DNA of 35,036 nt. Origin: an uncultured Synergistales bacterium. Its GTDB lineage: Bacteria > Synergistota > Synergistia > Synergistales > Aminobacteriaceae. Under the pieces are notes generated by a model, which did no database searches, was not told the DNA's origin, and saw nothing but the letters and a program-made list of their open reading frames with translations. Positions 7,058 through 8,454 of this stretch are shown here, piece by piece (position 1 is the first letter of the stretch; each line of letters starts with the position of its first letter). Position numbers and translations under genes: made by a program. The DNA lies in contig CAJOES010000010.1 of NCBI GenBank assembly GCA_905233455.1, positions 1 through 35,036 of the forward strand, read 5' to 3'.

Positions 7058-7083
7058 ACCCCGACATTATATCGGGGTTTTTT
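7058..7083 (+). terminator. Rho-independent terminator
   Basis: ACCCCGA (7058-7064) pairs with TCGGGGT (7072-7078) around a 7-base loop, followed by six T (7078-7083). It ends the 6650 gene and separates it from the promoter at 7128. Confidence 0.9.
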
Positions 7084-7127: not shown

Positions 7128-7159
7128 TTGACAGATACCCCCCCCCCTTAACGTATAAT
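7128..7159 (+). promoter_or_regulatory. Promoter with C10 spacer tract
   Basis: A perfect -35 TTGACA (7128-7133) and a perfect -10 TATAAT (7154-7159) are separated by 20 bases: GATA, ten C, TTAACG. Both hexamers are consensus but the spacer is three bases over the optimum. Loss or gain of C residues would change promoter strength. The gene start is 35 bases after the -10. Confidence 0.8.
7138..7147 (+). repeat. Homopolymer of ten C in promoter spacer
   Basis: Ten C in a row lie between the -35 and -10 hexamers of the promoter of the surface protein gene. Such tracts change length by slipped-strand mispairing during replication. It is the longest run of a single base that I noticed in the window. 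Confidence 0.95.
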
Positions 7160-7194
7160 TGCTGAAAAGTCAATAGGTATAAGGAGGAATTTTC

Positions 7195-8394
7195 ATGAGG
7201 AAATTTTTTGCGCTCATTACGGCGGCAGTGTTCGTAGTTGCTCTGGCTTCGGGGGCTTTTGCGGTAGAGTACGGCGGGACTGGCTATGAGACAGAAGGCT
7301 ATGATGAGGATCATGCTTGGGAGATTAGTTCGGCGGCCACTTTGGTGAAAGTGCGGGATGACATCAATAAAAATTACGGCAGTGTCCGCGCAGGCTCATG
7401 CTTCAAGTTCACGAGTGATATTGACCTTACAGGGGCGGCTTATGAGAATTGGCAAGCAATTAACATAAGGCGAGAACAGGACTTCACTTTTGACGGAAAC
7501 AATCACACTGTGAAGTTAAGAATTGTCATTAACGGCGGAGATTTTATTGACGCAGGATTATTCGGAAATATTGAGAAGGGTACGATCAAAAATTTATCAG
7601 TAACAGGCTCAATAAGATCTAATGCGGGCTGGGGGAATAGGGCAGGCGGAATTGCGGCAGGCATTCAATCAGGCACTATAAGTAATTGCAATTTTGACGG
7701 TACGATTGCTAACACATCTCAGTATGGATTTAGCAATGCTGGCGGAATCGCAGGGGTTGCCGGAAAAGAAGGTGTCGTAAAGATAACTAACTGCAAGGTT
7801 GGTGCAAATTCAGATACTGCTATAAGTTCGTATGGTTTTGGCGTAGCTGGCGGCATTGTCGGAACTTTTCACGATAATAATACCTCAAACAGGATAACAG
7901 GCAACTATGCACGTGTTACGCTTGAGAGTGATGACGAAACAGGAATGATATACGGTGCACGGGACGGCATAAACGGCACAGTATCCGGTAATACCGAAGT
8001 CAACCCTGAAGGCGATGATGACGACTCTGGAGATAATACTAACGAGGACGAAGACCGCATCAGCAATAACGACAGCGATAATACCAACGGCAACAACAGT
8101 AATTCCGGCGGCAGTACACCCGGCAATAATAATAGCAATCCGGGGCAGGACAGCGGCGGGGACAACAGCACAGACACCAACACCGGCAGCAATAACAATA
8201 CGGGCAATGATCCCAACGGTACTAACGGCAACACAGGCAATGATACCAGTCAGAACAGCACCAATACAGGCGAGACAGTCAACAATCCTCAAGCACAGAG
8301 CAACATCAATGTGAACGGCTCCGGCGGCGGTTGTGATACAGGACTCGGATTCTTAGGGCTTATGCTGGCACTAACATTACTGCGCAGAAAGTAA
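7195..8394 (+). CDS. Secreted GLUG-repeat protein with Synergist-CTERM tail
   Basis: A 399-residue exported surface protein. Residues 1-23 form a signal peptide (KFFALITAAVFVVALASG, ending AFA). Residues 30-265 contain beta-solenoid-like GLUG repeats, visible as AGGIAAGIQSGTISNCNFDG, AGGIAGVAGKEG and AGGIVGTF. About residues 270-370 are a low-complexity linker rich in Asn, Asp, Gly, Ser and Thr. The tail is Gly-rich with Cys-Asp, then GLGFLGLMLALTLLRRK: the layout of Synergist-CTERM, a sorting signal thought to be cut and processed by a membrane enzyme. Adhesion or surface-layer roles are guesses. AAGGAGG precedes the ATG. Expression is probably phase-variable through the C10 promoter. Confidence 0.85.
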   Translation: MRKFFALITAAVFVVALASGAFAVEYGGTGYETEGYDEDHAWEISSAATLVKVRDDINKNYGSVRAGSCFKFTSDIDLTGAAYENWQAINIRREQDFTFDGNNHTVKLRIVINGGDFIDAGLFGNIEKGTIKNLSVTGSIRSNAGWGNRAGGIAAGIQSGTISNCNFDGTIANTSQYGFSNAGGIAGVAGKEGVVKITNCKVGANSDTAISSYGFGVAGGIVGTFHDNNTSNRITGNYARVTLESDDETGMIYGARDGINGTVSGNTEVNPEGDDDDSGDNTNEDEDRISNNDSDNTNGNNSNSGGSTPGNNNSNPGQDSGGDNSTDTNTGSNNNTGNDPNGTNGNTGNDTSQNSTNTGETVNNPQAQSNINVNGSGGGCDTGLGFLGLMLALTLLRRK

Positions 8395-8418
8395 CCACAC
8401 CAACATGCAAAACGAAAT

Positions 8419-8454
8419 CCCCCGGCCTCACAATCAGGCTGGGGGGTTATTTTG
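8419..8454 (+). terminator. Strong rho-independent terminator
   Basis: CCCCCGGCCT (8419-8428) pairs with AGGCTGGGGG (8436-8445), with one G-T pair and a 7-base loop, followed by GTTATTTT. It ends the surface-protein transcript. Confidence 0.85.

Follow-up and report, generated by a model that had tools for sequence, protein, structure and literature searches.

The window analysed here is the whole stretch of 35,036 nucleotides from an uncultured Synergistales bacterium, corresponding to contig C10 of a 2.49 Mb genome (G000). On its forward strand it carries a gene for a secreted protein, preceded by a promoter with ten consecutive C between its two hexamers (G000:C10:7128-7159). The features of this unit are as follows:

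7058-7083, + strand: hairpin followed by T6, intrinsic-terminator-like, ACCCCGACATTATATCGGGGTTTTTT (read directly; the hairpin listing places it on the - strand)
7128-7133, + strand: perfect -35 element TTGACA (sequence and exact match in the genome)
7134-7153, + strand: spacer GATA-C10-TTAACG, 20 bp (sequence; the length is common to four copies in the genome)
7138-7147, + strand: C10 homopolymer, putative slippage tract (sequence)
7154-7159, + strand: perfect -10 element TATAAT (sequence and exact match in the genome)
7169-7173, + strand: GTCAA, 9 nt 3' of the -10 element and the reverse complement of TTGAC in the -35 element
7181-7187, + strand: Shine-Dalgarno sequence AAGGAGG (sequence)
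7195-8394, + strand: gene for a 399-aa secreted protein with signal peptide, GLUG-like repeats, an Asn/Gly/Thr-rich linker and a C-terminal Synerg-CTERM-like anchor
8416-8448, + strand: terminator-like hairpin 3' of the gene

Translation of the gene starts at an ATG at position 7195. The signal peptide was recognised by eye, and the domain matches are weak: GLUG has an E value of 0.05, which is below the cut-off, and Synerg-CTERM (TIGR04564) scores 16.5 bits against a cut-off of 22.5. The initial annotation had described the product as a secreted repeat protein; judging by the signal peptide and the two sub-threshold matches, the protein is probably surface-exposed. The hairpin with T6 upstream is terminator-like and would close the preceding transcription unit. 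As hairpins flank the gene on both sides, the unit is probably monocistronic.

On the exact sequence, both hexamers are perfect, lie 20 bp apart and enclose the C10 tract, as had been stated before. No other C or G run in the window exceeds a length of 6. With independent bases, runs of at least 10 are expected about 2.8 times per whole genome and about 0.04 times per window, and 32 of the 40 runs listed for the own genome reach this length. In the genus, 20 of 176 tract strand-views are located between a -35 and a -10 element, compared to 1.7 expected from shuffled sequences (one mismatch allowed per hexamer). Chance juxtaposition of tract and promoter was ruled out by the run excess, the shuffling test and the four copies of the promoter module. 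The homopolymer occupies the position between -35 and -10 that is characteristic of porA/tp0126-type promoters.

The module TTGACAGATACCC(C/A)CCCC...TAACGTATAAT is found four times in G000, at unlinked loci on contigs C10 (the window), C14, C61 and C118, and its spacer always measures 20 bp. The genes behind the four copies differ, comprising the GLUG-like secreted protein of the window, a secreted Ig-domain protein (Pfam He_PIG), a 443-aa protein whose first 150 residues match no Pfam family, and a secreted protein whose frame contains a TGA. This in-frame TGA, near position 1041 of locus L010, falls on signal-peptide codon 6 of the fourth-copy gene, which is either a pseudogene or affected by an assembly error. 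A scan of a virus collection for the module gave no matches. The wider pattern consists of about 18 tract promoters across 43 genomes of the genus, preceding genes for secreted proteins, small Gly-zipper proteins, glycosyltransferases and a GTPase. Judged by a conserved gene next to them, the promoters of genomes G026, G040 and G041 are orthologous, and the same probably applies to that of G024. All four precede similar small-protein genes, mostly of the Gly-zipper type, with tracts of 10, 11, 11 and 10 and spacers of 20, 20, 21 and 20 bp in the order G024, G026, G040, G041. MAG assemblies can miscount homopolymers. All sequences used are assemblies, mostly MAGs, and tract lengths may therefore be off by one; the length differences seen at corresponding sites are differences between species. 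The genus was assigned through relatives that bear the names Fretibacterium sp. and Synergistaceae.

The most striking property of these promoters is their spacing. The 43 genomes contain 147 TTGACA-N-GTATAATT sites, 17 with a G/C tract and 130 without. In all 17 tract promoters the spacer measures 19-21 bp, in 11 of them exactly 20 bp; two carry G in place of C. Among the promoters without a tract, 109 of 130 have spacers of 16-18 bp and only five fall at 19-21 bp (Fisher p = 3.5e-18 versus the tract class). No perfect-hexamer tract promoter of the genus with at least eight C has a spacer of 16-18 bp. An ascertainment artefact of the perfect hexamers was ruled out, as the spacing is unchanged when one mismatch is allowed: with one mismatch per hexamer and both tract orientations, 18 of 20 candidates fall at 18-21 bp, while the shuffled expectation is 1.7 over all spacings. 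A 17-bp promoter with C7 occurs once, in G027, before a Gly-zipper-like protein; it may be an outlier, or its tract may have contracted.

Tract length and flank length compensate each other. In 18 promoters of the genus, tracts of 8-14 are combined with a remaining spacer of 6-12, and the two are inversely related (r = -0.89). The variance of the total spacer is far below that of permuted pairs, with p = 2e-5 for all promoters and p = 3e-4 after collapsing paralogues and orthologues. As flank length offsets the number of C, selection keeps the spacer near 20 bp. Interrupted tracts (C3AC6, C6TC3, C6TC2 and C5AC3) likewise retain 19-20 bp upstream of intact genes. Such tracts should slip less, and C-richness can evidently persist without much slippage. 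The initial annotation had assumed an optimum of 17 bp, which would require seven C in the window. This assumption does not agree with the genus, where the tract promoters cluster at 19-21 bp and the trade-off between C number and flank keeps the spacer at about 20; spacing around a 17-bp optimum characterises the known examples and is not inherent in the mechanism. The compensation, the interrupted tracts at 19-20 bp and the lack of tract promoters at 16-18 bp argue that 20 bp is itself in use. The working spacing of the window promoter thus appears to be 20 bp and not the textbook 17, and about 20 bp is more likely a working state of this promoter class than simply an OFF state.

An alternative reading retains the 17-bp rule and takes 20 bp as a low or OFF state, from which loss of C would move the promoter towards ON. 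Tract promoters would then be placed on the flank of the optimum, where single slips cause large changes, and the perfect hexamers would offset the unfavourable spacing. For tp0126 and porA an optimum of 17 bp is indeed published (PMC7864442), so that 20 bp may be a weak state. Beyond the genus, promoters with C>=9 dip at 17-18 bp and those with C7-8 peak at 17 bp among the matches listed (p = 0.0097, uncorrected for relatedness), and the displacement goes in opposite directions in different taxa, which speaks against one geometric cause. However, ON states should then be encountered, whereas the genus has no perfect-hexamer promoter with C>=8 at 16-18 bp, and both the compensation and the interrupted copies suggest that 20 bp itself is used. 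We consider this alternative possible, though distinctly less probable than a working spacing of 20 bp.

Among the matches listed from other phyla and lineages, promoters with C>=9 have spacers of 15-16 bp in Clostridia and Mucispirillum, and of 19-21 bp in Synergistota, Treponema and termite-gut Oscillospiraceae. Clostridia genomes (MAGs L035, L042, L056, L094, L104 and L109) each contain several promoters of a distinct type, TTGACA-(A/C)NT-C9-GNG-TATAAT, in which the spacer measures 15 bp. Three Mucispirillum assemblies (L046, L081 and L126) also contain a C9, 15-bp version, located before similar genes. A single DNA-geometry cause for all taxa was ruled out by these short C9 promoters: as the same kind of tract goes with 15 bp in Clostridia and Mucispirillum and with 20 bp in Synergistota, a stiff or A-like poly(dG:dC) alone is not the general cause.

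The sequence downstream of the -10 element introduces a further explanation. GTCAA is found exactly 9 nt after the -10 element in 7 of 18 tract promoters from four species (the window, L008, L009, L010, L011, L012 and L018) and in 0 of 12 controls, with a chance probability of about 1e-8. It is a possible operator or 5'-leader element. Together with the long C-rich spacer it could be the target of an activator or repressor, in which case the C tract would be a binding or structural element and not a switch. MerR-type promoters have spacers of 19-20 bp, a range into which the window promoter and the genus fall, and the persistence of interrupted tracts would also fit. A protein site would be oddly served, though, by tracts that range from 8 to 14 and occur in both C and G orientation, and many coding tracts of the same genome have no promoter role. 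Furthermore, no tract-promoter spacer exceeds shuffled sequences in dyad symmetry, which argues against a classical MerR-type operator within the spacer. A regulator-dependent class of this kind is held to be improbable. Other repeats were noticed in the flanks. A TACGTA/ATTT-rich motif lies 3' of C tracts on the C strand, including coding tracts, often twice at a distance of about 10 bp, and the window -10 element overlaps it; the motif is weak, with an EM log-likelihood of 104 against 38-58 in control windows (G000 loci L176-L212). In G000 and relatives, 7-bp tandem arrays (ATCGCAC x4, AGCTCAC x4, GCCTTGT x9 and TGCGAAC x7) directly follow perfect TTGACA-N16/17-TATAAT promoters without a tract (L003, L004, L005, L227 and L266) and form a second class of simple repeats at the transcription start.

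The promoter tracts belong to a genome that is rich in such runs. G000 contains 39 C runs of at least 8, counting either strand. In a sample of 175 kb, which is enriched for tracts by including loci fetched for them, the number of runs declines to 2 at length 7 and rises again to a peak at length 10. Tracts of C>=9 reach a median of 6.7 per Mb in the genus, compared to 3.0 in the family's other genera (p = 6e-5), and the own genome has 14.5 per Mb. Most tracts of G000 are intragenic with G on the coding strand, and among the 22 scoreable tract genes, for which both sides are readable, 11 are intact and the other 11 lose their frame precisely at the tract. The affected genes encode glycosyltransferases, FkbM and TylF methyltransferases, a polysaccharide pyruvyl transferase, a PEP mutase, a phosphonate-type Fe-alcohol dehydrogenase, a TPP enzyme, a hybrid histidine kinase and, by NCBIfam, an NHLM-type bacteriocin exporter. 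The last of these, an ABC transporter, loses its frame at a run of G11 (L177). The G tracts in the PEP mutase, Fe-alcohol dehydrogenase and TPP enzyme genes (L198, L199 and L201, on contigs C49 and C54) lie in phosphonate-biosynthesis-like genes, which suggests a phase-variable phosphonate decoration.

In a glycosyltransferase named GT92-like by resemblance, at least eight species share a tract of about 9-16 at an identical codon; some copies are in frame and several are frame-broken there. Orthologues that lack the tract mostly have intact frames, and two contigs break off at this site or close to it. The fixed codon, with no clear inserted block in these orthologues, does not support the idea that the downstream flank of the coding tracts is a mobile inserted module. 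Frame-broken genes and interspecies length variation at an orthologous tract are therefore established for coding tracts. Lost mismatch repair was ruled out as the cause of the tracts, since the genus has both MutS1 and MutL. In 143 kb of loci from the own genome, three of six N runs adjoin tracts, and N runs or contig ends are located at or near tracts in L201, L205, L207, L242, L260 and L261; these gaps are compatible with heterogeneous read lengths at such sites. The excess of G/C tracts over chance, combined with surface-glycan and surface-protein genes in ON and OFF frames, corresponds to what defines a phasome of the Campylobacter/Neisseria type. Coding tracts of varying length with intact and broken frames indicate that slippage-type, phase-variable loci exist in the genus, and the C10 promoter is likely one of them. 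A neutral homopolymer, arisen by chance or mutation with no regulatory effect, or an error in the assembled tract length, would be conceivable given the miscounts possible in MAG assemblies. It is very hard to reconcile with the 17/17 spacing rule, the compensation, the multi-copy recurrence and the run-length peak at 10, and is given hardly any weight.

The explanation we favour, and regard as reasonably probable, is that the window contains a sigma-70-type promoter with a slippage-prone C10 in its spacer, one of a genus-wide set in which about 20 bp is kept. Replication slippage at C10 would add or remove C, shifting the distance between -35 and -10 in 1-bp steps, and the altered spacing would vary the expression of one surface protein between cells. 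The result would be phase variation, probably graded, and the C10 promoter would probably act as a random on/off or dimmer switch. This is in keeping with the candidate slippage switch proposed initially, which gains support from the tract between perfect elements and from a genome rich in contingency tracts. The window promoter belongs to the multi-copy set in the genus and, beyond it, to the more numerous G/C contingency tracts, which lie mostly in surface-glycan genes. For the tract promoters, the anatomy, the copies, the spacing rule and the genome-wide tract excess are direct observations. Within-clone slippage at C10, a resulting change in transcription and the sign of that change are inferred, the slippage step because coding tracts in the same genus behave in this way and because porA and tp0126 provide precedents.

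Besides the published 17-bp optimum, several findings count against this explanation. The presence of MutS and MutL means that no boost from lost mismatch repair is available, a search of window-gene homologues in other genomes found no tract promoter, and interrupted copies persist. A broader and more tentative proposal, which we think has a minor chance of being correct, is that a genus of Synergistota has a dedicated class of G/C-homopolymer promoters, copied to numerous unlinked surface genes. Their working spacing would be about 20 bp, the tract would be at once length switch and structural or regulatory part, and, with the related promoters of Clostridia and Mucispirillum at 15 bp, avoidance of 17 bp would be a general rule for slippage promoters. 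If the favoured explanation holds, phase variation by slippage, known mainly from mucosal pathogens, would also operate in a lineage of the gut and rumen that has not been cultured, where each genome would hold dozens of switchable surface genes. The rule of 19-21 bp is simple and quantitative, and it challenges the habit of reading ON and OFF from the distance to 17 bp.

In Campylobacter and Helicobacter, such tracts lie in glycan and surface genes. Their phasomes resemble the present case in having tens of G/C tracts per genome and frame-broken alleles (PMC8355987, PMC2823697). The present case differs in its host phylum, Synergistota, in the presence of MutS/MutL and in a recurrent promoter module with a nearly fixed 20-bp spacer. 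According to a homopolymer survey covering 99 genomes, poly(C) and poly(G) are generally under-represented; its main text does not contain the word 'Synergist' (PMC2831843). For Synergistetes, Synergistota or Fretibacterium, a search of the open-access literature found no paper on phase variation through homopolymers, which is weak evidence but agrees with the initial annotation, to which no described case in Synergistota was known.

Several individual promoters can be compared more closely. In sabA of Helicobacter pylori, tract length also tunes promoter output in graded steps (PMC4081817); there, however, a T tract beside the -35 element acts on the axial alignment of UP-like elements and not on the spacer. 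The initial annotation had drawn the parallel to opc of Neisseria meningitidis, a variably expressed outer-membrane protein. The poly-C tract supports this comparison, as does its position between -10 and -35 according to PMC2791445, whereas PMC7864442 states that the poly-C includes the -35 element and probably acts via a regulator. The analogy to opc is therefore imprecise, and the nearest analogues are porA and tp0126, both of which have the tract between -10 and -35 (PMC7864442). The tp0126 gene of Treponema pallidum encodes an OmpW homologue of the outer membrane and contains a poly-G in this position; it is best transcribed at 17 bp in the report summarised by PMC7864442, in contrast to the 19-21 bp found here. 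The porA gene of Neisseria meningitidis, whose output is graded with tract length (PMC3639595), likewise combines a surface protein with a G:C homopolymer of about 10 in the spacer, in its case a poly-G. It differs in its optimum of 17 bp, while here a spacing of about 20 bp is kept across many unlinked promoters of one genus.
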